Assembly (NCBI GenBank): GCA_025766275.1
Contig: JAFKAC010000076.1
Span: 62,001-126,000, forward strand
Source of the DNA: Lactarius indigo
Taxonomy: Eukaryota; Basidiomycota; Agaricomycetes; Russulales; Russulaceae
Length of the DNA: 64,000 nucleotides
Direction: 5' to 3'
Shown here: positions 33,257-61,282 of the stretch, in pieces
Layout of the letters: each line of letters begins with the position of its first letter
Position numbering within the stretch: the first letter of the stretch is position 1
Notes under the pieces: model-generated
Told to the model about the DNA's origin: nothing
The model's input: only the letters and a program-made list of their open reading frames with translations
Database searches by the model: none
Program-made: the position numbers and the translations under genes

Positions 33257-33272
33257 GCCTGGGGTCTCACGC

Positions 33273-33287
33273 TAGAAAAGGAGGTGA
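33273..33287 (+). other. Polypurine tract of element E
   Basis: TAGAAAAGGAGGTGA lies directly before the 3' LTR (TGTTACG at 33288). Confidence 0.75.
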
Positions 33288-33807
33288 TGTTACGTTTTGA
33301 CTCGTACCCTTACTGTACCGGTTGCAACTACGGCGGTAAGGTATATTAGTTGCGGACTTACTTACGATAGTGCGGTGATACGGTAACGCGATAGGAGATA
33401 CGGTACTGATAGCTGACTGAGGATGGACGCCACCGATACTAGTACTAGTAGTACTAGGGTTTGAGATACTTACGCGATACGTTGGACGCTACCTACTGTG
33501 ACTCATAGCAGCGCTTCTAAGCCTGCTCGTTTGTGTATTTAAACTGTCTTGTGAAGACCAAGATACGCCATCTTGGTCTTCTTGAATCGTCACTTGTTTC
33601 TCTCTCTCTCTCTCTCTCTCCTGCTCTTTCAAAGACTAGAAGACAGAAGCCTGCCTTCGTTCGAGACGCAAGACAGCAACTCCGTTAAGGTGCACCTTTG
33701 AGTGTTCACTATTGTCTACGCTTGGACCTTCGTGTCTTCAAGGCATCCGCTAAGTTGTTACCGCCTCCATCGAGCTCAAGTCGAGCTAACGTCGTGACGA
33801 CGTTACA
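33288..33807 (+). repeat. 3' LTR of element E
   Basis: 520 bp, nearly identical to 25932-26449, followed by CATCT and D gag sequence. Confidence 0.95.
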
Positions 33808-41919: not shown

Positions 41920-41936
41920 GTGCTTGCCAGCACTAA

Positions 41937-43468
41937 TGGCAACAATCACACAAGCAATGGAAGAAGTTGTGCTAGAAGAATCACGTGCAATACATCAAGA
42001 AGCAAGAGAAATCCTCATGCCAATCAACCCTGAAACAGGCATCCAGATGACCACTGATGACGCTGCAATATTCAGAGCCATAGGATCCGACTGGGGAGAT
42101 CCCTCATCAGGAAGACGACCCGTGCTAGAACTACCACCTGAAGTAGGAGGACCAGGAGGAGGACCACCACCACCGCCAGGGGGTGGAGTCCCATTCAACA
42201 TACAACGAGGTGGACCTCCCCATCCAGGACCACCAGGGGGAGGACCACCTGCTGGACTGCCCAGAGGTGGCAGAGGTGGAGGTGGCAACGGTGGTGGAGG
42301 AGGAGGCCATCATGAGAAATTAACCAGCAAGCCCCCTTCCATTTTTGATGGGGACAGACTCAAAGTAGACCAATTCCTAACACAGTGGCACGTCTATTGG
42401 GGAATGAATTTGGACGCCCCTATCATGCGCAACAACTACAGAAGAAGCCTACTGTTCCTATCCTACATCAAAGGAGGAGCAGTCAGCAAATGGGTTCTGT
42501 CATTCCTCAACTGGCTCAACAGACAAATACAGTGGGGAATAAGCCCCTATATAAGAGAACTGTGGGAAGCTGTAGCTGATGGGTTCAGTCAACGGTTCAA
42601 AAACACGCTGGAACGAGAACAAGCACAAGCCATACTCCGAAAGGGGTTTAAAATGGCAGGAGAAGACATTGACAAGTACGTAAACGACTTTGAGCAGCTT
42701 GCAAGGAAGGCTCACTACCGCCTTAACAAACCACAAACAATCGACCTTTTCACGTCGGGACTGCCCAAGGAGTTGTTCAAAAATGTGTTCCAATTTGACA
42801 AACCAGTCACATTTGATGACTAGAAGCGAGCTGTCCTCAAGAGACAGAAGAACTACATTCACCTCAAGGCAAGGCTTAACGAATACAAGAATATGCCAAT
42901 GCAGCTGAAGAAGCAGAGTGGAAACACTGGGTGGACCCTCCCACAGAACCTGCCACAAACAAACCCGTGGGCAATGGACATGTCCACCAACCGCGCACAA
43001 GTAAGACTCGCGGGATCTGAGGAGATTGATTATGGAAAACCGCCTTACACATGGCAACAGCCACCATTCCCGCCTAGAGGAGGGCCCAGGGCTTGAGGAA
43101 GAGGGCAAGGAGGATCTAGAAGGGACCTAAGGAACATCCTCTGCTATAATTGTTACGCTCTGGGTCACCTCTCACGAAACTGTCCACACCCATGAACACA
43201 GGGAATGTGGCAACCCAATGCTCCGTCAAGCAGTCGAATGACCGAAACTATGGGGTACATGCAGGGACCTCCAACAACATACAAGCTGCTGGGGTATATG
43301 TCGCTGGCACCCAGTGCGATGCCCATGCCACAGATAAACGCAGCCACCATGAAAACGGCAGGGGAACAAGCAAAAGAGTGGCTCACGCAAGTAGCCAATA
43401 GTACGGATGAGGTGAAAGACCTCATTCTTCAAGACTTGTGGGGAAAAGAGGGTTTTTGGGACGCCTGA
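41937..43468 (+). pseudogene. Element F Gag, 5'-truncated and decayed
   Basis: Homology to E gag starts at M-A-T-I-T-Q-A-M. The N-terminal domain, leader and 5' LTR are missing, cut at about 41925 by A'. It keeps the Pro/Gly-rich tract (42140-42310), capsid-like domain (42340-42860) and a worn zinc knuckle (C-Y-N-C-Y-A-L-G-H-L-S-R-N-C, about 43143-43184). TAG at 42821 replaces a Trp codon. Other stops are TGA near 43094 and 43194. Arg to Trp and Glu to Lys changes against E show C to T and G to A decay. It ends W-D-A-stop at 43468. Confidence 0.82.
43450..43456 (+). promoter_or_regulatory. -1 frameshift heptamer GGGTTTT (element F)
   Basis: Gag codons GAG GGT TTT TGG. The -1 frame continues as the pol start R-L-N-P-S-V-W-V-R-A-L. 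Confidence 0.65.
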
Positions 43469-44537
43469 ACCCGTCAGTCTGGGTGAGGGCTTTAAAATGT
43501 AATTCTGTAATTGTGACAACACACCATTGATCTCTGCAAATTCCAGTAATGATTCACACGAATTGCAAAACGACTGAAACAAACGCCCTGATTGATTCGG
43601 GGGCAACCAACAATTTTATACAACCAAGTATGGCGATACGGGCAGGAATCCCAACTCAGGTACTCGAAGTACCACACAAGATCTGGAACATCGACAACAC
43701 GGAAAATAAAGCTGGGTTAATCACTCATTATGTTAACCTAGAAGTGAAAATGTGTCAGCAGGTAAAGCAAATGACCTTTTTGGTCATGGACCTCGGAAGC
43801 GAAGACATGGTACTAGGCTACCCATGGCTTGGTGCGTTTGAACCAACAATCAACTGGGCACAAGCAACAATGCATCCAGACATGCATCTGATAATCATCG
43901 CCACCAACGAAGCACTACTGAACCGTACCACAGCAAGGGTGTTAGTCACAACAGAAAAGGAAGAAATCTTCCAGGAGCTGGAGGAAGAAACCTTCGCCCA
44001 CGCTACTACTTCCATGGAGCTGGCCATACTGGCACAGCAGCAGCAACATGCGGCAACTCTTCCACAAGAGTACGAGCCATTCCGCAAACTCTTTGACGAG
44101 CAGGCCTTGCACCGCTTTCCCCCGGCTAGGCTGTGGGACCATGCAATAGACTTCAAGCCATCAGCGCCGGCCGCCATAGACTGCAAAATATATCCCATGA
44201 CACAAAAGGAAGAGGGGGAACTGAAAGAGTTCCTAGAAGAAAAGTTAAAGCAAGGGTATCTACGCCTGTCTATTTCCCCATACACATCCTCCTTCTTCTT
44301 CATTAAAAAGAAGGACGGAAAACTACGCCCGGTGCAGGATTATCGGGTCATTAACTCACACACGATCTGCAACCAGTATCCACTCCCGCTAATTCAGGAT
44401 CTCATCCTTGACCTCAGCAATGTCCATATTTATACTAAACTAGACATCCGGTGGGGCTATAACAACATACACATTTGCAATGGCGACCAGGAAAAAGCGG
44501 CCTTCAAAACCAAATTCGGACTTTTTGAACCAACCGT
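43457..44537 (+). pseudogene. Element F Pol: protease and first half of reverse transcriptase
   Basis: Protease I-D-S-G-A-T at about 43592, then the linker and reverse transcriptase start (F-F-F-I-K-K-K-D-G at about 44300, W-G-Y-N-N at about 44450). The frame is open from 43549 to the insertion point of element I at 44537 (F-E-P-T-V). It resumes at 56608 with M-F-F-G-L-T-N. Confidence 0.85.
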
Positions 44538-45389
44538 TGATACCCTAAACCGTCGCTTAAACGCAAGAACGACCAGTAAAGGAGTAATATTGGGTTTGAG
44601 AAGTCGAGGAATATAGGACCAATAATCCGGCCGATGGCAACTTTAACTGAGGGCGCACCGACGCGGGACCGAGTGAGCCGAAGCCAACCAAGGTGAGAGT
44701 GATGTAGTCTTAACGCGACGCGGGGCTGCGAATAGCCGAGGTATAGCCGAATACACTCACACGGGTGCTTCGCGAAATCAAATAGAATAGATGTCGTAGA
44801 TAATCGAATAGTAGAATATGAGCGTATGAATGGAATGAAGTCGCTATGGGCTCCCCGAAGGTTGCTGCTGTAGTACCTGTGGTATAGAGCTATTTATGTG
44901 CTGCCGCTCGCCAACCGAATCCACACCTTGCCGCTTTTCCCTTGCTGACCATCCATCTTACTCTCCTGCCTTAAACCCACACTGGTCTGATCCGCTCTTC
45001 TCTGGGGTGTCGCCTTACCAACCCTAGGTGCTGCTTTGCCTATTTGCGCCATGGCCATGCCTGTGATTCTGCTCGGCCGCTCCGGTATGTTGCTATTTGC
45101 CATGTTGGCCCTGATTGGTTTCTGGGGCTTTCATGTGTACCGCGCTAATATAGGCACCGTCCCATACCCCGCGCTGGGGCCACACCCGTGATTGCAGCAG
45201 TAGGCTACCGTTCGCATATGCGGCTAGAATCTTTGGGCGTCTCGGCCCATCACCACGGGCTGCTCTTCCCACCGCCAAGAGTGACCGATCACAATACTCT
45301 AGACGGGCCAGTGGGGCCGGTCTGCTGCATATTGTCGTATTAGCTTAGATCTGTGAAAATTAACGCTTAGCGGTGCACTGGGTGTATCA
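44538..45389 (-). repeat. 3' LTR of element I
   Basis: 852 bp. On the minus strand it is preceded by the polypurine tract AAGAGGGGAAA (about 45390-45400). It is the LTR next to the start of the antisense gene cluster, so its sequence could supply that promoter. Confidence 0.92.
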
Positions 45390-45570
45390 TTTCCCCTCTT
45401 GGCTGAGCTTCTGACTGTCCTCAGTCAGTCGGCACAATAGCATCGTGTGGTAGAAGTCTACGGGCGGTGCCGGTGGCGTGAGAACGGTCTGCGAGTCTGC
45501 CATACATTGTCGCTGATATTGTTATCATCGGCCTTTTGCCGTTTTTCTTCCTTGAGTCGATTCTTCCAGC

Positions 45571-46928
45571 ATGTTGCAAAAATCCCGTGTGTTTTCGTTC
45601 GCTAAGTTGTTGCTCTTGCATCTTCGCCCCGAGTTTGAGAGGACCGATCTGGATGCCACGTTGGCCGATGAGCTAGCGCAGACCTTTTTGTCGGCTCTGG
45701 TGAGTACTTGTCAGCTTCGATCTGTGCTGATAGTGTTTGATCGGGTTGACAGGAACTTGTTGTTTTGTCGGCGATTGAGGCCGGCATAGATGTTGGCGCC
45801 GATCAGGAGGTGGACGCTCTTGTTGGTGCTGCATGCAGCTGCCTGCTTCCATTCACTTCAGCAGCTTGGCTTGAACATTCGCCTCATCTTGTTGCTGGGA
45901 GCGAGGAGCAGCTGGGCTCCTTGTCGGCGCCGTTGGTTCCGCCTGGGTCAGCCGATATACCCGGTGACTACGTGTGGCTCGCTGAGTACCGCCAACAGGT
46001 GGAGGCTGGTACTTTGTCTCGCGCTGAGTTCGAGGCCCACCATGCGGCCATTCTCGCGGCCGACACCAGGCCCGACATGCCACTGTCGCTGCTGGTTCCA
46101 TCGCCGCTCTTGCGGTCGTCCGCGCGCCCACTCGGCCCTTCACCCGTCGGCGGTTCTCCCACCTTCGGTTTATCAGAACTCTTTTCGCAGAGTTCCATCC
46201 AATCTCCCGCCCTTCGTGCGGCTGGGGCGGCACCTTCCCCGTCTGGTGCCGCCGCCGCGCTTTCTGAGGAGCCCGCGGTCACTTCCGGGTCGGGGACCGG
46301 TTGTGGCATTAAGCGCGGTTGTATGCCCGAGTTGATGGATGTTACGTTGATCGCTGGGTGGCGGCGGGTGCGTCTCGGTTGGCTTCTCTTGAGTGTTGGC
46401 TAACCTGTCTTCTAGTGCGTGACTTGCATCAAGAGCAAGGTGAAATGCGCGCCTGTTGTCGGTAGTTTGCTGCCGTATCCGTGCTGGTGGTGCGTTCACG
46501 GGGAATGCGCGTGTGTTCGGGCGCCGCTTCTGCACCATTGCCGCTGTTGGGCAGGCGCTGCCGCGCCTCCCCGTGTTCCCTCTCCCAGTGTTGCTTCGCC
46601 CAGTGTTGCTTCGCCCAGTGCTGCTTTGCCCGGTGCCACTCCGTCTGGCAGTGCTCACGCCGGCTCGTTCTCTGGTAACGCTCGTGCCGGTGCCTTTTTC
46701 GGTCCCCCAGAGGACTGTTTGGGCACTGAGCTTGCCGCTACCATCATCTTCTATCGCGCTGAGCTTGCTCGCGCGATGGCTTCTCGTACTCTTATCGACG
46801 AGAACATCATCTTCTTGCGTTTCCAGCTGGCCAGTTATCTCGGCATGATGGTTGAGCCTGGCACTTCTCTCGGGCAGCCACCGCCGAAGCAGCTGCAAAT
46901 GCACGCTTCGTTGAAGGGTAAGGAGTGA
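45571..46928 (+). CDS. Antisense gene 1 of element I: spliced Zn2Cys6-like protein
   Basis: Exons proposed at 45571-45699, 45753-46367 and 46416-46928. Introns are 53 bp (GTGAGT...ACAG, CTGAT branch) and 48 bp (GTGCGT...CTAG, CTAAC branch), both phase 0. The product is about 418 aa. The N-terminal 150 residues align loosely with genes 2 and 3, with the first intron at the matching place. A Ser/Pro/Ala-rich stretch follows. Residues 249-281 then read C-x2-C-x6-C-x11-C-x2-C-x6-C with basic residues between Cys 2 and 3, the fungal Zn2Cys6 spacing. TGA at 46926 is followed by an open acidic tail to 47072, so it may be a CGA to TGA stop. A DNA-binding role is inferred. Confidence 0.65.
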
Positions 46929-47310
46929 GCGATCAATGTTGACGCGCTCTCGGATGACGATGCCGAAGCGGCTGATGAGGATGAAATTGAAGACGGGACC
47001 AAATATGAGTATGAGGAGGAAGATGCCGAAATGGACTGGGCGGGCATTTCCAGGGATCTCGGTGCCGAGTAAGCCGCGGTCGCCCGATGTACCTTTGTAG
47101 AACACTTGTAAATAGACCTTCCGTGTTGCCCTGTGCCTGGGTATGTATTAATCTTGCCACGTTTTGTTGAAATGAGTTAGTGCCGATTGCCTTGCACTTT
47201 TTCTTGCGCTTTCCCCCCTGAAAAAATTAATTTGGCTGTCCTCAGCCGCCGCATCAGGCCGGCTTGTCGGGGCCGGCGATACTTTTGTCGCACTTGCAGT
47301 GTGAGTAGGG

Positions 47311-47971
47311 ATGGAACTTTTTCTCCCTTTGCACTCAATGCCCATTCCTTCAAATAACTCTAGCCTGGTGGACTCGAGCGATGGCGAAAACCGTCGCACG
47401 TATGTGCATGCGATTGCGCAGCTGGCCGTGCTTTCCGAGCGGTGGTTCGGTCTTCAGTGCCACCCTGCAGATGTTGCTGACTTCCTTCGAGATTTCTATC
47501 GTGCTTGGGTACGACACTTCTTTTTGCTTGTCTTCACTAGATGCCTAACTTCTCCAGGAATATGCTGAGCGCATGGCCGCCCGTGCTGGTGTTCATAGCC
47601 TCGCCGAGTCTGCTCAGGAGCTTCAGACAATCATCGAGGAAGCTGCTGTGCCTCATGCCAAGCTGGAATGGCTTTTATTATTTCCTGGCGTTTTCGAGGA
47701 GCACCAGTCGCGGCTCATTTGGTATGTCGTCGTATTCAGCTGTGCTCAGTCCGCTGTTATCGTGAACGTTATCCATGGACCGGGGGTATCTGCGCTTTGG
47801 GACCCATATGTCTTAGCCGTTGCCGAGTTTCAGGACCTTCTTGCTGTGGGCGTTATCAGTTTTGACGAGTATCAGTGGCAGGAGGAGCAGCTCGGTTGGG
47901 CTAGTTTACTGGCTGAGACTGCGTGGCGAAGCTCTTCGGCGACCGAGGGGGTATCGCATGATGCAGAGTAG
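47311..47971 (+). CDS. Antisense gene 2 of element I: spliced paralogue
   Basis: Exons 47311-47508 and 47558-47971, with a 49-bp intron GTACGA...CCAG and CTAAC branch. Splicing joins D-F-Y-R-A-W to E-Y-A-E-R-M-A, giving 203 aa. Shared blocks with gene 3 are a Trp right before the intron, an acidic-Tyr start of exon 2, W-L-L-x-F-P-x-V, S-R-x-x-x-Y, C-x-Q-S-A and a final E-F-x-x-L-x-A-x-G-x-I-S-x-x-E/D-Y-x-W. No membrane span or known catalytic motif is visible and I do not recognise the family. It is complete as read. ATG 47338 is an alternative start. Confidence 0.65.
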
Positions 47972-48137
47972 CATTCCTTGTACCTGCCCGGCCTTTGTAA
48001 TTGGCGTACTACAACCTGTTATTAAATGGTGTCTCTTGTGTCGATCTTCGTCCATTGACATGTGAAAAGAGTCCGTAGCGAGTTGTCTCGCATTAAAGCG
48101 GCTTGTTCGCCATGAGCCGGTCCCAACGTTCCCTGCC

Positions 48138-48702
48138 ATGGCTGATACTGGTCGTGACTCTGATGCCTACTTGCCCAAGGGTTTGCTCAAGGCTGCCTTC
48201 GATTCCGCTTTGACTAGTTTCTTTGTGTTTGGCGAAACTTGGTCGCAGTGTCCTCGCCAGGCGCCACAGATCACGTCGTGGCTACGCTTGTTCCAGGGGT
48301 CGTGGGTACGTTGGTAGATCTATGTGTTTTGTTCATTCCATGGTGATTGTGCACTTCTAGGATTATCTTTGGCTGATGGCGGATGCTGCTAACGATGGCA
48401 AGATGGGGGCTGACGCATATGCCCTGTGTTTGCTTGTTCGGACCGAGGCCGCACCGTTTGCGGATGTTAATTGGCTGCTCGAGTTCCCCATGGTTACTGA
48501 GCACATTCGAAGCCGCGTGTTGCTGTATACAGGGGTCTTATGTTGCACGCAGAGCGCTGCTCTTGAGGAGTGTTTCGCCAGAACACTGGTTAGTGAGCAG
48601 GTCCCGGATGTTTATGATCATGCTGCTATCGAGTTTGAGTTGCTTCAGGCTGCCGGGGACATTTCATGCGAGGACTATTATTGGTACCTCTTGAAGTTGT
48701 GA
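48138..48702 (+). CDS. Antisense gene 3 of element I: spliced paralogue
   Basis: Exons 48138-48305 and 48361-48702, with a 55-bp intron GTACGT...CTAG. Splicing joins L-F-Q-G-S-W to D-Y-L-W-L-M-A, with the intron in exactly the same place and phase as gene 2. The product is 169 aa. It is clearly related to gene 2 (W-L-L-E-F-P-M-V, S-R-V-L-L-Y, C-T-Q-S-A, E-F-E-L-L-Q-A-A-G-D-I-S). After the TGA at 48700 the same frame stays open to 48924 and ends in an acidic tail like that of gene 1, so the TGA may be a decayed CGA. Confidence 0.65.
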
Positions 48703-49218
48703 TCTGACCGGCTGACGGTGATTTGCAAGCGAGGGTCGCTCCTGAAGATCATGCATCTGGGCCGCTCGCCTCGCGGTATGCTTTGCCTATTTCTTTTTCG
48801 CCGCTTTATGCCTAATCGCTTCGCTGTAGAGTTGCATGTTGGTACTGGTGCCGAAGGTTATTTTGTTGCTGGCGCGGAAGACGGTGCAGAGGACGATGGT
48901 GGTGAGACTGGGGTAGGTGCCTAAGGACTGTTGCATTGGATCGTGAAGGAGCAGTGGCGCTGGTATACCTGGAATCTTGGTAGTGAGCTTGTAGCGGCCT
49001 CCTGCTGTACTGGAGAAGTTATTTATCTTGATGTGCGAGAGTCTCCATGGGCGTTGGCTATTGCGGAAGTTCAGTGTTTTAGTTGGCCCAGTACCGTGGA
49101 AACAGGCTTGTTAGGCTGGCATGTGTGTGCTCGGTGTGCTTGGGGTTCGGCCTCAGGTAGAGGTTATATCGCATGTTATTTCACTGTGCTCATAGGATTA
49201 AAAGCGGTAATAAAGTAA
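48703..49218 (+). pseudogene. Degenerate fourth module of the antisense cluster
   Basis: Bases 48703-48924 continue gene 3's frame to an acidic end. From 48931 the same frame encodes W-A-L-A-I-A-E-V-Q followed by G-L-L-G-W-H, resembling the E-F-x-x-L ... Y-x-W block of genes 2 and 3. No clear start or intron is visible. It reads as a worn extra copy, and the match is weak. It ends next to the end of pol, which runs the other way. Confidence 0.4.
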
Positions 49219-49284
49219 GACTATAGAAGATTAAATTCCAGAATTGGCACTTTCGCAGCCCATGTTTTTGCGCTTATGGAACGT

Positions 49285-52200
49285 TCACATGTCGAGGTCT
49301 TCTGCTGCCTCGGGTATATCTTCATCGTCTTCGCTCTCTTGAGCTCCTTGTCGTGGGTCCATGTCTGGTTCGCCACTGGCTTCCAATTCGCGCAACCGAG
49401 CGACCGAGACGTCCAAATGTTGTTCTAGATTGGGTATGTCCATATATTCGCGGGCGAAATACAGCACCACTCTGAAGGCTGCTATGGTGTTGTGTAGTAG
49501 TGTGCTGTTGAGCTCGCATACTATGTAGGCCCCTCCTTTGTTTCACGAGACCACTACTAGTGGCCCGAAGTAGTGCGGCCACATTTTGCGATTCAGTGCT
49601 TTTTCTATCGCGGTGTTGCGGATTAGGACTAGAGCGCCTCTTCTGAAATCGTAGTCGTGAATTGTTGCCGAGTGTGCCTTCTCGAACTGAAGGGCCACGC
49701 AATTGCGGTGTTTGTGTACTCTCACCTTGAGCTGGTCTAGGTCTTCTGGTCGCTTTTGCAGAGCTACCGCCCGCCGGGCGATGAGGTTGGTTGTCGCTAG
49801 TATTGAATTGGGTGGGGGCGATAGATAGTTTGCTTCTACGATGTCGAAGGGTAGCAGTGGGTGAACACCGGTCGCTGTGAAGAATGGCGAGCAGCCAAGA
49901 CGCTTCCGCAGCGTAATGTGCTCCGACCAGAATACGGAATATGTTGCCTGTGGCCAGCGGTTTTGCTCACCGTCGACCGCTTTAAACAGTGCTTGCTGCA
50001 CGTCGAAGTGTGCGTGCTCCACTATGCCATTCGCGCAAGAGTTATATCTGCTTATCCTAATATGCATCACGTGGTACTTGTGCTCCAAGTGGCCGAGCGC
50101 TGCGATGAAGGGCTTGCCATTGTCTGAGACTATTTCTGTCAGCGTTCCCCATCAGCATAGTACATCTTGGAATATCCAGTCACCAAGTGCCTGAGCCGTT
50201 TCTTTCCGGAGCATTCTAAATTCTGGGTATCCAGTTAGAGAGCAGCGGCCTTGTACAATGTAGGAGTAGCCGGCGGCACGCAGGAGGTGCATTGTGTCCA
50301 TATACATTTTTGCAAATAAGGGCGCGGGGGTGGCGACCACCGGCGGTATTGAGATTTGCTGGGTCTGCCGGGTTTGGCAGACATGGCAGGTGCGCATGTA
50401 CCAAGTGATGTCATCACCCATGAATGGCCACCAGTACCGTTCTATTAGTAGAGCCTGGGTCGCGTAGAAGCCGCGGTGCCCGGTATTGTTGTGGGCCGCG
50501 TGTATCGCTTCGATGCGTTGGTGCCGATATAGGACTCTCTGGTGGGCCCCCTGCGGGTTTCGCTTCCAGAGTAGCCCGTTGTCTACAAAGAATCTTGCTG
50601 CGAAGCGCACTAGAGCGGTATAATCTTGTTCTGTCATGCCTTCCGGCCGCTCCAGGAAGGTCAGCCAGTCGTGCGCTGCCACTAGTTTTTTGTCGGCTCG
50701 CGCAGCTGCTTCCATTCGCGGGATTAGATCGTAGTTCGGCTCATATGGAAATGCGTCGGCCATCTCATATGGTCGCTTTTCTGGTATGTTCGTGCTTGCG
50801 ATGGTGTATAGAAGTTGGTTCGTGCGAGGCACCGCGACTGGGTGGTTAACCATATGCATGAAGCCATATAGGTTATCAATCCAATCTTCAAATTCTTCTT
50901 CGCTGCTTTCTTCCTCCTCTTCTTGTTTGTCATCCGGCTGTACTGGCCGCCGAGAGAGTCCATCCAGTCCGTGCTGCTTTCCAGGGACGTGGCGCAGCTC
51001 AAAATGAAAGGTTAGAATTGATACTATCCAGTGGTTGACGCTGGCCGACGGTGCGATGTCTGGATTATTGAGCATGCCTTTGATATACCTGGCATCTACT
51101 TCCACTATTAGGTTGCACACGCCGACGATGAATATTTTGTAAGCACACAGTGCCCTATAGAGGCCATATAGTTCTAGCTTTGGTTGTGAAAAGCGGCGCT
51201 CTCGGTCGTTTAGCGGCAATGAGCCAAAGCATGCATAGTACCGCTTTTTCAGCATTGCTGGGTCGGCCTGGCAGAGGTAAAACCCTACAGCTATCGGTGA
51301 GGTGTCCACGGCCAGTATTACCGGTGAGTCGGATTGGTAGTCAATCGGCTGAAGCGCTGGTGAACTCAAGAGGGCCCGCTTTAAGTCTTCTTGGGCCGCA
51401 ACTTGCGCCGGTCCAAATTTGAATGGAACACTTTTGCGAGTGAGATTGATGAGCGAGTTGGCTCGTTTTGCGAAGTTTTGTATGAATATCCTGCACACTC
51501 CTACGGTGCCGAGGAACGCGCAAACTTCGGATAGGTCTTTGCATGGTCCCCAGTTAACGATCTTGTTCATGCGGGCCACCTCTGGTAGCCTTCCGCGTGG
51601 TGTGCACCGGTGTCCAACTGCAGTTATTTCCTCTGCGCAAAGTATTGATTTTAGGCCACTAAATGTGCTGCTGCAGTACTTGATTCGCTGGACTACTCAA
51701 TTGAGTCCTTGGAAGTGCTCCCAGATAAATCGGCAGATGCTGGTATTTTCTAATATTCGTTCTTCTGTTCCGTCAGCTAGTTCATACCGACCTGCTGGTC
51801 CGCGAATCAGCACATCATCAATGTAAGGAACTGTGACGTCTGGGATCTCTGGCTGCAATATGTATGTGACGTCATCGTGAAATATCGGGACCAAGTTCGT
51901 CCATCCCATGGGTAAAGTGACCAGTCGCAAGGCGCCGAATGGTGATTGGAAGGTTGTTAAATCTCATGATTCTGGTGACAAGCCTCGTTCATCATAGCCG
52001 ACATATAGGTCTAGCATGCCGCCGCACACTCGGCTGGCGAAATGCTCGCCTATCTGATCAGTGAATGGGGTGACACCAGTGTGCTTGATTGTAACTTTGT
52101 TAAGCGGCTCCAGACTGTGGACTATGCGCAGTGATTTTCCATCTTTCTTTATGACGCAGAACCACCGAGATCGGTATGAAGAATTTGATGGTTTGTATAC

Positions 52201-52904
52201 ACTGGCATCGATCTTGCATTTTATTAACCGGCAGACTTCGTTGTAGATTCCGGGTGGTATTGGTATGTTTCGCTGAGCCCAAGGCTTGTGCAGGATCGTA
52301 GGGATTTCGATCGGCGGAAAGAAGTCTTCGCGGAAGTGTCCACGCTCAGCATCTTCCCAGGCAAATGCTTTATTCTGGATGCACATGAATTCGTGCATCA
52401 GCTTGTGTTCTTCTGGTAATAAGAAGTCACCGGCGTGCGCAAGGTCGAATTGCGTTTTGCGTTCGCTAGTATATTGGCTGGTTGGTCGGAACTTGCTTGG
52501 TTTAGTGGGTAGTGCCGGTAGGTCTTGTAGTGGGTCGCCAGTTATTTCGCGGACTATTCTGAACCAGCTTGGGAGTTTGGTTTCTATCGGTCTGATTTTG
52601 AGTGCTACGGGTTTGTATTTCTTGCCAAGGTATATTGCGGCCGGTGCTTTCACGTCGGTGAAGGTGATGCTTTTGCCTTCCTGCTGGGCCGGCTGATTGC
52701 TGCTGTTAGATTCCAAGGTATTAAGATAGGTGCTTAGGTTGGGGTTTTCTGAATCACATAGAGAAATGTACGCTGCTGCAATGTCTTGTTGCGTGGTATC
52801 TGCCGGTAGCAGCGCACAAGCTTTGATTGTTGCTTTCTGACTTGATTGGTTGAAATTTAATATTATTGCGAGCTCTCCTTGGTTTGTTACCAAATCATCG
52901 ATGC
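49285..52904 (-). pseudogene. pol: Element I Pol (RT, RNase H, integrase), decayed
   Basis: One minus-strand frame of about 1206 codons entered by -1 slip from gag. A long linker precedes reverse transcriptase (Y-I-D-D at about 51830), RNase H (about 51320-50960) and integrase. The integrase has HHCC (H-N-N-T-G-H-R-G ... C-H-V-C-Q, 50500-50360), a core that includes the stop near 50149, and C-terminal sequence to 49285. The stops are TGA near 51964, 51696, 50149 and 49540, each where the family normally has Arg. No frameshift is seen and no chromodomain is evident. It belongs to the basidiomycete gypsy type with Y-I-D-D and a D-P-G protease. Confidence 0.82.
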
Positions 52905-55475
52905 TTAAAAATCCGAGTCTTGCGATTGTTCGCTTGTCTGCTTCTTTCTTTGCTCAGCAAATCGGTTGCTGCCACGCGGTACCATCGGCACCGTTGCCAT
53001 TTTCCCGGTGTTTGGGTCGAGGATTGTTATTGTCTGGTCTTCGTTCCGGTAGTTGCGCACCACGGATTGGGTCAGTATGTCGAATGGCCGCCCGAGTAGT
53101 ATATCATAGGCTGGTGAGCACAGTATGTGAACTTGTAGATAGAGGGTTATTTTGCCAACGTGGAATGGTACGTTGCGCACCAGTCCTAGCAATTGATCTA
53201 CACCGCCATTCGCCGAGATCATGTTGAGCCGTATGCTCGGGTCATAAGGGATCGCCAGTGCGTTGCACACTTCTTCTGACATTGCGACTATTTGGCAGCC
53301 GGGATCTAAGATGGCTTCTATCTTTTCTGATCTGTCGACTACTGGTAAGATCGCGCGTAGGGCATTTGATTTGGTTGCGACTTTGATCATATTTTGCAAT
53401 CCATCTTCATCAGCTGGTCGCGCCTTTAGTAATGCCTCATACGGGTCGGCTATTATTGTTGCGTCGGCTGGTGGAGTGCGCTTGGCGATCGAGAATGCCG
53501 CCGGCATACGCGATTCTGTCGATCGCTTCAGCTCCTCCTCAGTACTGTCTTCTACGCTTTCTTGGGCGTTAATGTGAGCAACGCAGCGCTTTGTCGTTAC
53601 TTCATTGACTTGGGCCCGCAGTTCTGGTGCTAACGAGAGTAGTTCTCTTTGCATCACTGTTACTTCAGCTTCCATCATCCTTTCGTAGACTTTTCCTGCT
53701 GCCTTTTCATCATATATGGCCGTATTTGATGTATAAGCGCGCTCGCTTTTGTGGTCGTTCGCCGTATTTGTTGCCGGAGTCGGTCCTAGAGTAATCGGTT
53801 CTGCTTCTTGCGTTCTGGCGAATGGATGTTCCTTTATGGTCGCCGCAACCTTGGTTGTTGCTTCTATTGTCTTTTCTAGGTGTGGCAGTTGTTCCTTGCG
53901 ATGCGACTGGCTTTCTTGCTCTTCTTCTGAGTCTTCTTGCTGGATGCAGGCAGTCGGCATATGTTCGAACCTTGTCCTGGTCCTTCCACCCATCCTTGGT
54001 ACAAAGCCTCTTCGGAATGCATATACGCCTGCTTGTCCTGGTTCTGGGCATTCTTCTGCAAAGTGGACTGTTTTCACCGTTTGCGCTTCTGCGGATGCTG
54101 TCAGCCTTGACATTTCAAGTAACATTTGTGCCGCCGCTATTTGTCCTGGATTTTGCCTGTGGTATTCGTCTATGCGGTCGTGCAGCCATGCTCCAGTGAT
54201 ATGCCGAGGGACCACGGCGCCTGATGGTAGCACGATTTTCCCTTCTGCGCTACGCTTGCACTTGCCGAGTCGCATATATTTGGCCGCTACTTCGCACTCT
54301 CGCATGAAGTGTCCTGGCATTCCACAGAAGTTGCACTTGGTGGTCAGTTCCCCTATCGGCCAAGGATTTCCAGTGTTTCGGGCCTTCTCGCTTGAGTTTT
54401 GGATTTCTAGCGCGTTTTTAAACATTTCGCCTAGTGTCACGACCACGGTTGCTAGCATGGTTTGGATCTCTGTCTTTATCTCTGTTGCCGGTGGGAGTGT
54501 CGCACTTGCCGAAGTTGTGCTAGAGATTGCGACCGGTGCTCGGCCCTGGAGTGCGTAGCTTGCAGCATCATACAAGTCTTCTAATCTGTAGGGGTCTTGC
54601 TGGTTGTGGTCTGGCATCTTTAGCTGTAGCCTTTGCTTGACTTGTTGTTCCATATCCGGCTGTAATCCTTGCATGAACGCTCTGGTCTGCTCAGCCTGCG
54701 ACATTCTGTTTTTGCTGATCAAGTATTTGGAGATTACTTTGAATTGTCGGTAGTATTCGCCGAGTTCCAGTTCTGAGACTATGCCAATGCGGGCACGCTG
54801 TCCTATGAGCGTATCCAGGTGTAGGATTGTATGAATGTCTTCCGAGGATCCGGGGTATAGCTTGTAGATCTCGGCTTTGTATTCTTCGTATGTTTTTGTT
54901 ACATCCGTTAACGCGTTGCTTGTCTTCCATACTCTTTTGGTCGTGGCTGTCATAAGGTATTTGAGTGTGCCGCTTTTCTTATCTGCATTGGTCGTTACTG
55001 TGTGCCTATCGTATAGGGCCTCCACTTTGGCAAAATATCGGCCGAGCTCTTCTGGGTGCTTGCCATCAAAACTAGGTGCTGACCGCTCGCCTCTTCTGGG
55101 TAAATCTGCAAGGGGCATTCTTCTGACGTTGACCGCTGCTGCGGGGACGGGCTGGTTTATTCTCGCTGGTGGTAGTCTTGGGGCCAGTTGCAGTATGGCC
55201 TGTGTTTGAGTTGGGTTCTGGTTTATCAGGGGTACTGCGGGGTTTATCGCTGTGTTGCTTTGCTGAGGCGGCGCTGATTGCACTCGTTGGTTACTACTGC
55301 TGGGCTGCCAGTTATTATCTTCTGTCGCAGATGCTGTGGTGTTCGCTGGTTGGTTAACACTTTGATCGGCTGCTTCCTGTTCTTCGGCCGATAATGCTTC
55401 TGCCTGCTGTTGTTGTGCTAGGATTTTCGCTCTTGATCTTGTTGTTGCGCCGTGGCGTGCAGTTAACGGAGCCAA
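52905..55475 (-). CDS. Element I Gag-protease
   Basis: 856 open codons from the first near-cognate codon. The frame is open further upstream to about 55690, again without an in-frame ATG, so the true start is unclear. A Gln/Asn-rich N-terminus is followed by a capsid-like region (about res. 150-300) and a CCHC knuckle (C-N-F-C-G-M-P-G-H-F-M-R-E-C, about 54335-54295). A long charged linker leads to a retropepsin-like domain with L-D-P-G-C (about 53310) and Y-D-I-L-L-G-R-P (about 53090). The protease uses D-P-G where most retroelements have D-S/T-G. It ends in D-S-D-F at the slippery site. Confidence 0.8.
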   Translation of the reverse strand: MAPLTARHGATTRSRAKILAQQQQAEALSAEEQEAADQSVNQPANTTASATEDNNWQPSSSNQRVQSAPPQQSNTAINPAVPLINQNPTQTQAILQLAPRLPPARINQPVPAAAVNVRRMPLADLPRRGERSAPSFDGKHPEELGRYFAKVEALYDRHTVTTNADKKSGTLKYLMTATTKRVWKTSNALTDVTKTYEEYKAEIYKLYPGSSEDIHTILHLDTLIGQRARIGIVSELELGEYYRQFKVISKYLISKNRMSQAEQTRAFMQGLQPDMEQQVKQRLQLKMPDHNQQDPYRLEDLYDAASYALQGRAPVAISSTTSASATLPPATEIKTEIQTMLATVVVTLGEMFKNALEIQNSSEKARNTGNPWPIGELTTKCNFCGMPGHFMRECEVAAKYMRLGKCKRSAEGKIVLPSGAVVPRHITGAWLHDRIDEYHRQNPGQIAAAQMLLEMSRLTASAEAQTVKTVHFAEECPEPGQAGVYAFRRGFVPRMGGRTRTRFEHMPTACIQQEDSEEEQESQSHRKEQLPHLEKTIEATTKVAATIKEHPFARTQEAEPITLGPTPATNTANDHKSERAYTSNTAIYDEKAAGKVYERMMEAEVTVMQRELLSLAPELRAQVNEVTTKRCVAHINAQESVEDSTEEELKRSTESRMPAAFSIAKRTPPADATIIADPYEALLKARPADEDGLQNMIKVATKSNALRAILPVVDRSEKIEAILDPGCQIVAMSEEVCNALAIPYDPSIRLNMISANGGVDQLLGLVRNVPFHVGKITLYLQVHILCSPAYDILLGRPFDILTQSVVRNYRNEDQTITILDPNTGKMATVPMVPRGSNRFAEQRKKQTSEQSQDSDF
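52908..52914 (-). promoter_or_regulatory. -1 frameshift heptamer GGATTTT (element I)
   Basis: Minus-strand codons TCG GAT TTT TAA, so the heptamer directly precedes the gag stop as in element C. The -1 frame continues L-S-I-D-D-L-V-T-N-Q into pol. Confidence 0.7.
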
Positions 55476-55755: not shown

Positions 55756-56607
55756 TGATACCCTAAACTGTTGCTTAAACACAAGAACGACTGGTAAAGG
55801 AGTAATATTGGGTTCGAGAAGTCGAGGAATATAGGACCAATAATCCGGCTGATGGCAACTTTAACTGAGGGCGCACCGATGTGGGACCGAGTGAGCCGAA
55901 GCCAACCAAGGTGAGAGCGATGTAGTCTTAACGCGACGCGGGGCTGCGAATAGCCGAGGTATAGCCGAATACGCTCACACGGGTGCTTCGCGAAATCAAA
56001 TAGAATAGATGTTGTAGATAATCGAATAGTAGAATATGAGCGTATGAATGGAATGAAGTCGCTATGGGCTCCCCGAAGGTTGCTGCTGTAGTACCTGTGG
56101 TATAGAGCTATTTATGTGCTGCCGCTCACCAACCGAATCCGCACCTTGCCACTTTTCCCTTGCTGACCATCCATCTTACTCTCCTGCCTTAAACCCACAC
56201 CGGTCTGATCCGCTCTTCTCTGGGGTGTCACCTTACCAACCCTAGGTGCTGCTTTGCCTATTTGCGCCATGGCCGTGCCTGTGATTCTGCTTGGCCGCTC
56301 CGGTATGTCGCTATTCACCATGTTGGCCCTGATCGGTTTCTGGGGCTTTCATGTGTACCGCGCTAATATAGGCACCATCCCATACCCCGCGCTGGGGCCG
56401 CACCCGTGATTGCAGCAGTAGGCTACCGTTCGCATATGCGGCTAGAATCTTCGGGTGTCTTGGCCCATCACCACGGGCTGCTCTTCCCACCACCGAGAGT
56501 GACCGATCGCAATACTCTAGATGGGCCAGTCGGGCCGGTCTGCTGCATATTGTCGTATTAGCTTAGATCTGTGAAAATTAACGCTTAGCAGCACGCCAGG
56601 TGTATCA
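55756..56607 (-). repeat. 5' LTR of element I
   Basis: 852 bp. Just inside it on the minus strand is TTTCTGGTGGCCAACG, which contains a TGG and may be a tRNA-type primer site. I found no self-complementary partner in this LTR. Confidence 0.9.
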
Positions 56608-56913
56608 CTGTCATGTTCTTTGGACTTACCAACTCTCCTGCCATGTTCCAAGCAATGATGAACCATATCTATCGCAACACCATCACAAAACACAAACGGT
56701 TGGGAACTACGATACATGTTTACATGGACGATATAGGCATTGCCACTCACTTCAACCATGATTTAGCTGCCCATGTCACCGCTGTCCGGGATGTTTTGCA
56801 GGTAGCGGTGGAGCACGATCTCTACTTCAAACTCGAAAAATGCCTGTTTCACCAACCGTGAATGGATTACCTGGGGGTAATCCTTGAAAGGGGGGTAACA
56901 CACATGGACCCCA
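56608..56913 (+). pseudogene. Element F Pol: second half of reverse transcriptase
   Basis: Resumes after I with M-F-F-G-L-T-N-S-P-A and includes Y-M-D-D at about 56722. TGA at 56860 replaces an Arg codon (H-Q-P-stop-M-D-Y-L). It is interrupted at CCCCA by LTR A6. Confidence 0.85.
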
Positions 56914-57530
56914 TGATGAACAGCACACATAGAGATCTTACTCACAGAGACAAAGTTGACTGTGGTGAGATAAGAAGGGTGGCTGGAAGGCAGCAACAGG
57001 GGTGAAGTCAAGCAGAGTGAAGCAGAGGTTGTCTGGCACACAAACAGTGAGAACTGATGTTAATACATTGGAGAATGGAAGACATACCTGGCACACAAAC
57101 AGTGAGAACTGATGTGGACCAGGAGCGTACATGGTACACTACTTATACTGTTTACAGGAGTGACACTACTACAAGGGATGTAACATAGAGTCACGCAGTA
57201 CAAGAGACGTTGTTCTACATGTGGACAAAAGGGATGTACAAATGGAGAACAAGGAGTGTAAGAACAAAGAAAGTCCAGACTAAGATGATATCATAATGAC
57301 ACCACAATAAGGATATATCTAAAGAGAGAACAAAGGCATAGTACAATGACAGTTCTAGAGGAGTCCGCATGATGTCATGGTACAGTGATGTCATAGATAA
57401 GAAAATACAAGGTGTCCAAGATTGTACAGATCAAATCTAATCTAAAGCGGTCCTAATTAATCTACAGCAGTCCATATCTGTAAGTCCGGTCCGTTAGAGC
57501 CGCTAAGTGCACAAGGGTCACTTATCAACA
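56914..57530 (-). mobile_element. Solo LTR A6 (family A)
   Basis: 617 bp, minus orientation, with a perfect duplication CCCCA (56909-56913 and 57531-57535). It is inserted in the F reverse transcriptase. Confidence 0.95.
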
Positions 57531-60500
57531 CCCCATAAAAGTTCAAGGCATTAAAGACTGGCCGACACTGGCGAAAGTCAGGGACGTACAGTCATTCCTG
57601 GGTTTTTGCAACTTTTACCGGCTTTTCATTCGTGGTTTTGCCATGCACACCAAACCTCTCAACAAATTAACAAGAAAGGACACGGAATGGAGATGGATGG
57701 AAGAAGAAGACAAGGCCTTCAAAACATTAAAGTGCCTGGTAACAGAAGAGCCGGTACTAGCCCATCCAGTGCTTCGAGACCCATTCAAACTGGAAGTCGA
57801 CACCTTGGGATACACGGTGGGAGCCGTACTACTAAAACGGAAAGCTGACAGAAAGAAGCATCCGATAGGCTACTATTCCGCAACACTTTCTGAAGCGGAA
57901 AGGAACTACAACATCTACGACTTAGAATTGCTCACAATAGTCAAAGCCCTGCGCAATTGGAGACCACTGCTGGCAGGAGCCCCCCACAAAATCAAAATCT
58001 TTTCTGATCACCTCAACCTACAGTACTGGAAGACACCGCAGAAGATTAGCAGGCATGTGGCAAGGGAAGTACTGGAGCTATCAGAATACAATTTTGAGAT
58101 TCACCACATCAAGGGAAAGAGCAACAGTTGCACCGATGCCTTGTCAAGATGGCCTGACTATGACCAAGGAACCGTGGACAACGAACAAGTGGTTCTGCTA
58201 CCGCCAGAAGTCTTCCTAAAAGTGACCAACATAGCTAGGACCCTCACCATCAACCCGAACCTCCAGCAACCTTGACACCAGCAGGACGAAAAGATCATCA
58301 GGCAGTGGGTAGACCCCTACAAACTAAAGAAGATTGACAGAGAGTGGTACAAGGATGGCAGGTTCATAATCACAGGACCCACCTCTACACAACGGGTGCT
58401 AATACACGATCATCATGACCTGCCCATTCACGGACATCTGGGAATCGTGAGGACGCAACAAATCATAGAGCGACATTACTGGTGGCCATGCCTACGAAAA
58501 GATGTGTATGAATACATACAAGGATGCGCCGAATGTCAGCGAAACAAAGTCAATACACGCCCCATTCAAGCGGCGCTACATCCCATCACGCCTGTCCTGG
58601 AAGCAACCCTGTTCCAAATGGTGGCAGTGGACTTCATCACCAAGCTACCAGTGTTGGGACAATACAATAGCATCCTCACGATCACTGACCATGACTGCAG
58701 TAAGGCCTCCATCTTTGTGCCATGCAAGGAGGAAATCATGGCTGAGGAAACGGCAACCCTGTATGTGAACCATGTCTTCAAATGCTTTGGATTACCACGT
58801 AAAATTATCAGTGACCGAGACCTGCGGTTCACATCAAAGTTCATGAGGGAAGTGTGTTGGATTTTGGGTGTCCAACAGAACGTGTCAACAGCCTACCACC
58901 CGTGTACCGATGGACAATTGGAAAGGACCAATCAATGGCTGGAACAATACCTGCACTTCTGGGTAAATGAGCGGCAGGATAACTGGACCTCTTATCTACC
59001 TGTAGCAGAATTCGCACACAACAATTGGCCCCACGAACACACCAAGCAGTCCCCCTTTCAACTTCTGATGGGGTATAACCCATACGCTGATTGGACCGAT
59101 AAGCTGTCCCCGATACCACAGGTGACCATGAGGCTGATGCAGCTCAAGGAAGCCAGGGAAGAAGCACAGCGCCTCATGAAAAAGGTGCAGGAAGCATGGG
59201 TGCGCAATAAAGATATGCCCAAGTTCAAAACCGGCAACCTCGTATGGCTAGAAGGAAGACACCTTCGGACCAATCAACCTACAGCGAAATTAGCGGCGTG
59301 ACGCCACGGACCCTTTCGGGTGACACAGGTGATGTCCCCCTATAATTATCAATTGGAACTTCCCACGCAGTGGAGCATCCACCCAGTGTTCCACATTGAT
59401 CTTCTCACACCATACAAGCAAACCCCCCTTCATGGGGAGAACTTCACACGACCGCCACCCAAACTGATTGATGGAGAAGAAGAATACAAAGTCAAGGTGA
59501 TTCTAGACACACAGCATTTTGGCCGAGGAAGACGGCTACAGTACCTCGTCAAGTGGAAAGGATATCCAGACTCGGAGAATCAGTGGGTCAACAAGGATGA
59601 CGTATTCGCGCCAGAAGCACTCCGACTATATCAGGAATCCCAAATGCAGCAGATGGAGGATAAAAGGAGGGGCAAAATGACAGAAGAAAGTCATCCCCTC
59701 TTCCTTCGATCTACACGTACTCACATGCCCACTTCTCCTCTGCGACATGTCACACAAGCGGCACTCCTCGACTCCCTTGCACAGGACACCCATGCCCTAC
59801 TGGAAGAAGACGACGCTACTGAAGTTCCCAACACCCAACTCACACCCTACACACCTACCGGACAGTCAGAGGGCCCTATCACCATGCAAGAATGGGTGCA
59901 CATCATCACCCAATTCCCAGATCCTACTCAGCACCCCGATGATGAGCAAGCCATCGTCCACGTCTTCTGAAATGATGCTGGTGAGCGTGAACCCATTGCC
60001 GCCATCCCCCCAAGTGACGACCTCATCGGCATTCGCAGAGTTTTCCCACGCAACGACAAGTGTTCGAGCTCTGATGGAGTACAAGTTGGAGGGCTGGAGG
60101 AAGGTAGCGGCAGCATGGCAGAAGGAACAACTTGACTCAGCAGCGGCCTGACTGAGGGAGATGCGAGAGCAACAGGAGTGATGGCAGCTGCTGAGGCTGG
60201 CCATGGTGACGACAATTACTACCCAGTGAGACATACCTTCATTTGAACGAAGCACAACCCTACTGATCCCCTCGTCACGCCCTGGCTCGTCTACACCGAC
60301 GGGTCCCCCATGTATCGAGGATGTGTGTGCGTACCTGGTGCAGCCAACCACCGTCCGTTCACTGCCGCCAACGACCCAGCACATGTCATTGCACCTGAAG
60401 GGTTCAGGGCAAATCGACGACCCCATTATATTGCATACCCCATCACCAGCCCCAACGGCGTCGAAAGAGACGCCTCACATGTTCAAATAATCAGAGGGGC

Positions 60501-60873
60501 AGACCCATTGATTTAGGGAGTCATACCAGGTTTGCCACACGTTTATGGCAAACCTCTCTATGCCGCGCCACATGTATTGGCTGCCCTCCGTCCCACCTAC
60601 CCGCATGAGGACCTTGTGATCTTTGCTGCTGACAAAATCACCGACCGTGCCCTCAACCGCATCAACGATGAAACCCTCACGGCGGAGGTGACACGCTATC
60701 ATGTGGCAAGCTATGAGCTCGACCGACTCCACACTCGGGTGAGTCAGCTGAGAGCCATGATCCTGTGCATGCAAGATGACAAGCGCAACTGCATCTATCG
60801 GCTGGAGCGCGCCACTGCATTGGAGTGCATTGCTGATGAGCAGAGGGACTGGCCCGCTCGTGACTTTCAGTGA
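57531..60873 (+). pseudogene. pol: Element F Pol: RT end to C-terminal extension, decayed
   Basis: One plus-strand frame with reverse transcriptase thumb, RNase H (57780-58080), integrase HHCC (58430-58550) and core (58625-58990), chromodomain (about 59490-59640) and the shared extension to R-D-F-Q-stop at 60873. Stops at 58273 (TGA), 59299 (TGA), 59968 (TGA), 60148 (TGA) and 60243 (TGA) mostly sit where E has Arg. The S-D-R-D-P-R motif reads S-D-R-D-L-R and Q-S-E-R reads Q-L-E-R. No frameshift is seen, only transitions, in contrast to E. Confidence 0.87.
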
Positions 60874-60890
60874 GTCGGGGTCTCACGCTG

Positions 60891-60902
60891 AAAAGGGGGT
60901 GA
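60891..60902 (+). other. Polypurine tract of element F
   Basis: AAAAGGGGGTGA directly before the 3' LTR (TGTCATG at 60903). Confidence 0.75.
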
Positions 60903-61251
60903 TGTCATGATTTGACTTGTAACAGTACGACTCGACTCATGGACCCTTACTGTACCAGTGGTGACTACGGCAGTAAGGTAGATTAGTCACAGACTTTTGG
61001 CTTTAGGCCTCTACAGTGGTGATACAGTAGTGCGATAGGAGATTGTGTACAATAGCTGACTGATGACATGACTCAATACTAGTACAGGTACTAGTAGTAT
61101 TAGGGTTTGCAATGTTTCTGCAATATGTTGGATGCTACTATACTGTGACTCATAGCAGCGCTTGTAAGCCTGCTTGACTTGTATTTAAGATAGTTTGTGA
61201 AGACCAAGATATGCCATCTTGGTCTTCTTGAATCGTCACTTCTTGCCTCAT

Positions 61252-61282
<31 letters not shown>

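Follow-up and report, generated by a model that had tools for sequence, protein, structure and literature searches.

Replication through RNA should strip an element of its introns, a loss that genes on the opposite strand escape. In the window (the whole 64,000-nucleotide stretch of Lactarius indigo DNA analysed here), three intron-containing genes occupy positions 45571-48924 of the plus strand, between the minus-strand pol and the 3' LTR of a retroelement. This raises the questions of whether these genes reside in the element as one of its own parts, and of what they would do for it.

The carrier is organised as follows:

44538..45389, minus strand: 3' LTR, reading TGATACC...GTATCA on the plus strand
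45390..45570, plus strand: leader from the 3' LTR to gene 1, near-identical in six other copies
49285..52893, minus strand: pol, broken into several ORFs in this copy, with RNase H and an integrase zinc-binding domain; stop at 49285
52905..55475, minus strand: gag with aspartic protease (dN/dS 0.24)
55756..56607, minus strand: 5' LTR

The LTR pair, target duplication, gag-protease, RNase H and integrase zinc-binding domain identify a Ty3/gypsy LTR retrotransposon, RNase H ahead of integrase being the gypsy-type order; a reverse transcriptase profile gave no match on the broken pol pieces of the window. The two 852-bp LTRs of this copy differ at 39 positions (95-96% identity) and are bordered by a 4-bp duplication (CCGT/CTGT). 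The copy is decayed, with premature stops in genes 1 and 3. At the start of the leader lies the complement of a purine tract, which is likely the polypurine tract, and the leader is a candidate site for an antisense promoter.

Across the genome, the antisense block was recovered at 21 loci with constant gene order, and pol ran opposite to it in every one. LTRs flanked the block on both sides at 15 of these loci, with perfect 4-bp target duplications in 12 of the 15, and in six other copies the LTR pairs differed at only 1-14 of 852 positions. Among the 23 copies with pol identity of at least 84%, 21 carried the block, so that a coding region antisense between pol and the 3' LTR characterises most of the family; the two others (C35 and C151) bear pol without it. 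The block, its gene order and the six-cysteine spacing were all kept in a diverged subfamily whose pol is 66% identical, and proteins from several Lactarius species retained the gene order and the spacing, five fused Lactarius models showing gene 1 followed by gene 2. A sister element of the same genome (pol 44% identical) has no block, its pol stop lying 140 bp from the LTR. The opposite orientation to pol at all loci, the paired LTRs, the target duplications and the recurrence in the subfamily and in Lactarius support the view that the genes belong to the element as a resident component. The number of loci rules out a one-off insertion, and genes confined to sites outside retroelements were looked for and not found, which agrees with the placement proposed in an earlier note made from the letters of the window; a pair of gene-1-like loci, 95% identical, does exist at two places (C1:1148735 and C241:314536).

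The block itself comprises the following exons and introns:

45571..45699, plus strand: gene 1 exon 1
45700..45752, plus strand: gene 1 intron 1 (53 nt)
45753..46367, plus strand: gene 1 exon 2, with the helical domain end, a putative SHOCT-like hairpin and a proline/serine-rich stretch (dN/dS 0.34 in the part tested)
46368..46415, plus strand: gene 1 intron 2 (48 nt)
46416..47072, plus strand: gene 1 exon 3, encoding the zinc cluster, a helix and an acidic tail (dN/dS 0.32)
47311..47508, plus strand: gene 2 exon 1 (dN/dS 0.40)
47509..47557, plus strand: gene 2 intron (49 nt)
47558..47971, plus strand: gene 2 exon 2 (dN/dS 0.45)
48138..48305, plus strand: gene 3 exon 1 (dN/dS 0.34)
48306..48360, plus strand: gene 3 intron (55 nt)
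48361..48924, plus strand: gene 3 exon 2 (dN/dS 0.29 up to 48702, 1.00 beyond)

All four predicted introns are GT-AG and in phase 0, and their splicing connects open frames; the lengths of three are not divisible by 3, and the 48-nt intron contains in-frame stops. Their splice sites were kept in nearly all copies: GT..AG was found at 10/10 loci read for the first intron of gene 1, at 20/20 for its second, at 20/20 for the gene 2 intron and at 19/20 for that of gene 3, the single miss being a site cut by a nested insertion. The exon ends joined by Lactarius gene models are the same, and the first junctions of the three genes fall in the same columns of an alignment made without intron information, as expected from the matching place and phase reported by the earlier note. 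Among the six copies with near-identical LTRs, five contain all four introns and the sixth the three that were read in it. Since splice signals are present on the antisense strand alone, the genomic RNA would carry the introns unspliced, and spliced genes would be possible in such an element only because they are oriented away from that RNA. The intact introns of these young copies fit the earlier proposal that antisense introns survive retrotransposition.

Coding constraint follows the predicted frames, with dN/dS of 0.29-0.45 against 0.59-1.55 in the other plus-strand frames, gag (0.24) serving as yardstick; against this, the spacer between genes 2 and 3, intended as a control, gave 0.51. 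In gene 3, the stop at 48700-48702 of the window copy is a product of decay, exon 2 being open for 187 codons, to 48921, in 13 of 17 loci examined. The segment 48706-48921 is open in most copies and unconstrained (dN/dS 1.00), and is followed by a spacer of ~360 bp up to the pol stop. The worn fourth gene copy previously suspected here was thus rejected, the region consisting of this extension and the spacer. The paralogy of genes 2 and 3 is clear, since a search with either one retrieves loci of the other at E about 1e-9. The similarity of gene 1 to them held in its same-column first junction, and sequence kinship was weaker than had been claimed: of six N-termini of gene 1, three scored better than every one of 300 shuffles, that of the window did not, and hhalign gave E 0.26.

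Gene 1 is interrupted in the window by a premature TGA (46926-46928), where 19 of the 20 other loci have CGA; the gene therefore normally extends to 47069 and includes the acidic tail. Zn2Cys6 domains (PF00172) have the spacing C-x2-C-x6-C-x(5-12)-C-x2-C-x(6-8)-C. The cysteines of gene 1, already singled out by the earlier note, are arranged as C-x2-C-x6-C-x11-C-x2-C-x6-C and conform to this pattern at 17 of 21 loci scanned, the misses being three broken frames and one locus not covering the motif; of 11 gene 1 proteins scanned from Lactarius, 7 share it. The PF00172 profile matched all five Lactarius gene 1 proteins scanned with it (E 0.0065-0.39; 11.3-17.0 bits), never exceeding the curated cut-off of 21, and with E values up to 1 admitted it gave no match to gene 1 of the window. 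In a PDB sequence search, LEU3 was the sole match (E 0.26), and a search with the alignment of genes 1-3 gave a best E of only 0.10. SHOCT-like profiles also remained below their cut-offs (PF08044, E 0.18, for gene 1; PF09851, E 0.35, for the gene 2 part of P0010). Structure models were poor (mean pLDDT 56.8, for gene 2, and 51.5): when the gene 1 model was used to search for similar folds, no match at E <=0.001 was returned, and the LEU3 DNA-binding domain, at rank 11 of 30, had the highest probability (0.25), from a model too poor to rely on. Viral contigs compared with the gene 1 alignment yielded 58 pattern matches, none of them confirmed. The zinc-cluster motif of gene 1 likely binds DNA.

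Several other explanations of the block were weighed. If the frames had arisen by chance or been misread, the real gene would be an env-like ORF of the sense strand and the introns artefacts. A 310-aa minus-strand ORF (46173-47105) indeed overlaps gene 1 in the window, and dN/dS in the -2 frame (0.23-0.46 in the six exons) is no higher than in the predicted one. However, in its codon positions the -2 frame is a mirror of the plus frame, and it is stopped in all copies in 6 of 7 stretches, on which grounds the env-like ORF was rejected; the persistence of splice sites and the exon ends used by Lactarius models also leave this explanation scarcely credible. An active antisense RNA, controlling copy number via double-stranded RNA with incidental reading frames, would have precedent, retroelement antisense transcripts being capable of such control according to the accessible text of PMC7264820. 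It nevertheless appears very unlikely here, as constraint tracks the reading frame and leaves out the gene 3 extension, and both splice sites and cysteines are conserved.

The genes might also be passengers, a host cluster once captured on the antisense strand and carried since without use, for which the gene-1-like locus pair could be the host source and to which the two copies without the block would lend themselves. We hold this to be improbable in view of a frame-specific constraint close to that of gag, and of the retention of the block in at least 21 copies, in the diverged subfamily and in several Lactarius species. Slightly less improbable, yet still unlikely, is that the proteins target the host, for example by countering silencing of the element or by acting on host genes to its benefit. 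C-to-T/G-to-A substitutions account for 167 of the 242 changes between the window and C1 copies (148 at CpG), and the host therefore likely silences or mutates such copies; in addition, a zinc-cluster protein can bind anywhere. Against this stand the known parallels, HBZ/APH, which act on the LTR in the available description (PMC10186651).

The explanation to which we give somewhat better than even chances is that a recently mobile element of the Ty3/gypsy type carries the block as a resident antisense module that codes for proteins, with three genes and conserved predicted introns, in which gene 1 would be a Zn2Cys6-like protein, likely nuclear and likely binding the LTR or leader of the element itself, and genes 2 and 3 its likely partners or modulators. 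Its foundation is established at sequence level, namely the antisense position between pol and the 3' LTR at 21 loci, the mobility with the element, the frame-specific constraint, the splice sites and the cysteine spacing. Antisense transcription would start from the leader or the adjoining U3 part of the 3' LTR, reading into the element, and the transcript would be spliced by the host. Gene 1 could then act in the nucleus through its zinc cluster and acidic tail, and pair with genes 2 and 3 via the common helical domain, with activation or restraint of LTR transcription as the net effect. A slight excess of CGG/CCG triplets in the LTR plus leader (67 against a mean of 57.1) was set aside as weak support, 9 of 300 shuffles reaching the same count. 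Tentatively, and with less confidence, we propose a "complex" fungal LTR retrotransposon in which a spliced antisense three-gene circuit, made of a zinc-cluster factor and two smaller relatives, may set the activity of its own LTR. Wherever the element inserts, spliced regulators of its own would come with it, and the sister family without the block provides a natural control in the same genome. The block-bearing family illustrates the intron-escape principle through many recent insertions in which selection maintains three genes and four predicted introns.

With fungal Zn2Cys6 regulators of the LEU3/GAL4 type (PF00172), gene 1 shares the six-cysteine spacing, the basic K-x-K-C and the helix and acidic tail downstream; it differs by a cluster placed mid-protein behind a helical domain, a long middle loop (x11), a score below the family cut-off and the lack of a recognised regulatory domain. 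Among mobile elements, the accessible parts of PMC7264820 and PMC11963269 describe antisense accessory ORFs in the plant Ty3/gypsy elements Grande (gene23, nuclear and with its own promoter), RIRE2 and Retand (TRP28, with predicted DNA binding). These are likewise coding, antisense to gag-pol, located between pol and the 3' LTR and retained across copies and species, whereas their proteins are different ones, and the module described here has three genes with four conserved introns and belongs to a fungus; the term "intron" does not occur in the accessible text of either paper. Boty-like elements of Botrytis (Zhao 2011, as cited in PMC8365987 and PMC7264820), compared by description only, are fungal gypsy elements that also carry an extra antisense gene, brtn, but a single one and in an ascomycete. 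HBZ/APH of deltaretroviruses, as far as PMC10186651 was accessible, are antisense, expressed from the 3' LTR, nuclear, with spliced forms and acting on the 5' LTR; the parallel is limited to antisense position and splicing, the latter predicted here from sequence, as these are bZIP or other unrelated proteins of retroviruses and ours are three genes known by prediction. A literature search covering mostly titles and abstract starts, with subscription papers largely outside it, returned no report in which we recognised this element, or spliced genes on the antisense strand of any LTR retrotransposon. Antisense accessory ORFs are already known (Grande, Retand, Boty) and the spliced three-gene form looks like a new variant of them; within the literature searched, no antisense module of several intron-bearing genes would precede it in an LTR retrotransposon. 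Antisense accessory genes, described in plants and one ascomycete element, are thereby extended to a basidiomycete, where they take a spliced form with several genes. Whether transcription regulators of their own are encoded by LTR retrotransposons, as they are by deltaretroviruses, becomes testable with this family.

In the window copy of the gypsy-type element, pol stops 3.9 kb short of the 3' LTR, and this interval held three plus-strand genes, arranged with the carrier as follows.

Features of the minus-strand retroelement carrying the block, in window coordinates
45571-45699, 45753-46367, 46416-47072, plus strand: gene 1, exons
47311-47508, 47558-47971, plus strand: gene 2, exons
48138-48305, 48361-48924, plus strand: gene 3, exons
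55756-56607, minus strand: 5' LTR
55475-52905, minus strand: gag-protease
ending at stop 49285, minus strand: pol
45389-44538, minus strand: 3' LTR

All four introns were in phase 0 and their GT..AG borders were kept almost universally across loci (gene 1, 10/10 for intron 1 and 20/20 for intron 2; gene 2, 20/20; gene 3, 19/20), bearing out the three intron-bearing genes that the earlier note had placed here. The worn fourth gene copy it had also described proved to be an open but unconstrained extension of gene 3 (dN/dS 1.00) and a spacer of ~360 bp. In the window copy, gene 1 was cut short by a stop at 46926 and gene 3 by one at 48700; the former site read CGA in 19 of the 20 other loci covering it, and the gene 3 frame was open as far as 48921 in 13 of 17 loci examined. 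Over window positions 46080-49300, 167 of 242 differences from the copy on contig C1 were C>T or G>A and 148 fell at CpG of the C1 copy, a decay that looks methylation-linked or RIP-like.

Searching the genome (90.3 Mb, 291 contigs) recovered gene 2 at 21 loci, all of which also contained genes 1 and 3, and comparison of the gene 2 and pol searches placed pol on the opposite strand at every one. LTR matches flanked the block on both sides in at least 15 loci, a lower bound given that 40 of 53 LTR candidates were scored. Outer LTR ends, read in 15 copies including the window copy, were bordered by perfect 4-bp duplications in 12 and by one-mismatch duplications in three (window, C79, C271), and the flanking sequences differed among copies, indicating independent insertions. 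In six copies the two LTRs differed from each other at only 1, 3, 3, 3, 6 and 14 of 852 positions, all by transitions; five of these copies had all four introns read and present, and the sixth (C101) had all three that were covered. The window pair differed at 39 of 852 positions (38 transitions). A one-off insertion, which the earlier note had set against its reading, is thus contradicted by the 21 loci. Two pol-bearing copies gave no match to genes 1, 2 or 3 in the genome searches (C35:180801-204213 and C151:7483-20925; pol 86-92% identical, LTRs present, block absent) and are perhaps deletion derivatives.

The window copy sits in the pol of a second gypsy element, bordered by CCGT/CTGT. NCGN-type duplications were seen at 44534-44537 / 56608-56611 and beside the LTRs of the 14 other copies read (L053-L062, L081-L088 and partners); in 15/15, one or both sides carried CG as second and third bases (CCGT, CCGC, CCGA, GCGC, CCGG, GCGG, ACGT, ACGC, GCGA and others). 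The integrase appears to favour such sites, and the three mismatched duplications could reflect later changes at CpG. The host element (41927-44538 and 56606-61276) was ~77.6% identical to one at 26973-33627, and nested gypsy DNA and LTR pieces make up much of the window.

Selection on the predicted frames was apparent over six exon stretches, where dN/dS was 0.29-0.45 in 17-18 copies (decayed L001, L018 and L021 left out) and 0.24-0.46 with all copies. Other plus frames gave 0.59-1.55 and were stopped in every copy in 11 of 12 cases; the -2 frame, whose codon positions mirror those of the plus frame, was for that reason as low as the predicted one (0.23-0.46), and was stopped in every copy in 6 of 7 stretches. 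With all copies, the spacer between genes 1 and 2 gave 0.94, and that between genes 2 and 3 gave 0.51, a short stretch below the level due of a control. As positive control, gag from 15 loci and the window (20 loci fetched, 17 of them entered) gave 0.24 versus 0.76 and 1.00 in shifted frames. Full-length frames persisted for gene 1 from 46080 onward in 15/20 loci, for gene 2 in 16 of the 19 loci holding both exons, and for gene 3 up to 48705 in 13/20. The block is almost certainly a resident, selected protein-coding module.

Gene 1 comprised a helical N-terminal domain, a putative SHOCT-like hairpin and a proline/serine-rich stretch, followed by C-x2-C-x6-C-x11-C-x2-C-x6-C; past the cysteines came a long helix, then a basic region, then an acidic tail (structure model made from Lactarius protein P0003, mean pLDDT 51.5). 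The six-cysteine motif occurred in 17 of 21 loci, the misses being three broken frames and one locus not covering it, and in 7 of 11 Lactarius gene 1 proteins. Zn_clus matched all five Lactarius gene 1 proteins scanned, each below cut-off, and the profile scan gave no match in gene 1 of the window copy; the fungal regulator LEU3 was the sole PDB sequence match (E 0.26). Genes 2 and 3 were paralogues holding the helical part and hairpin, nothing more; that gene 1 is their kin is faintly suggested by the intron position it shares with them and by a weakly scoring profile comparison.

Protein searches matched exclusively Lactarius for gene 1 (11/11, best 7998 candidates by shared words scored) and gene 2 (2/2), and the closest gag match was from Lactarius hengduanensis (71%); the genome searched here is thus probably that of a Lactarius or a close relative. 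In L. hengduanensis, P0013 (a gene 1 protein) and P0015 (a gag of the lineage) both come from a contig 131,529 long and so likely share it. Five Lactarius gene models (P0004, P0005, P0010, P0011, P0012) fuse genes 1 and 2, showing that these adjoin there. On C270 (pol 66% identical), the genes lay opposite pol in unchanged order, with frame breaks at matching places (by eye, splice sites unscored) and a zinc motif, starting CDFCTCNKVKC, whose spacing was identical; on C277 and C79:503-506k the genes were present and the pol expected opposite was not seen alongside. Judging from these sequences, the block is old in this lineage. The genome also contains a sister element (C46; pol 44% identical, LTRs 99.7% alike and 8.2 kb apart), whose pol stop lay 140 bp from the LTR, leaving no space for the block; from this one sister copy, the block was either gained in this lineage or lost in the sister. 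Other gag relatives (P0017, P0020, P0027, P0028 and others) lie on metagenome contigs of ~10-15 kb, sufficient to reveal presence or absence of the block. A gene-1-like zinc-cluster gene was also seen at C1:1148735-1149283 (L051 1700-2280) and C241:314536-314988, 95% identical and perhaps allelic. As in gene 1, an intron probably lies immediately 5' of its first cysteine; a host source or a domesticated copy is possible.

Antisense RNA may be driven from the leader (45390-45570, plus strand) or U3 and spliced by the host; the gene 1 protein would then enter the nucleus and bind the LTR or leader, with genes 2 and 3, which lack the zinc cluster and would share a pairing domain, modulating it. 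CGG/CCG triplets in LTR and leader lend weak support to such binding, and we give this LTR-regulator mechanism an even chance. Our literature search turned up no LTR retrotransposon described as carrying several intron-bearing genes in an antisense module; antisense accessory ORFs at this position are already known from plants and from Boty of Botrytis, so that novelty would lie in the multi-gene, intron-bearing form. Parallels to the proposed mechanism come from HBZ/APH of HTLV, reported to include spliced antisense products that restrain LTR activity (PMC10186651), and from Grande gene23, reported to have a promoter of its own and to encode a protein located in the nucleus (PMC7264820).
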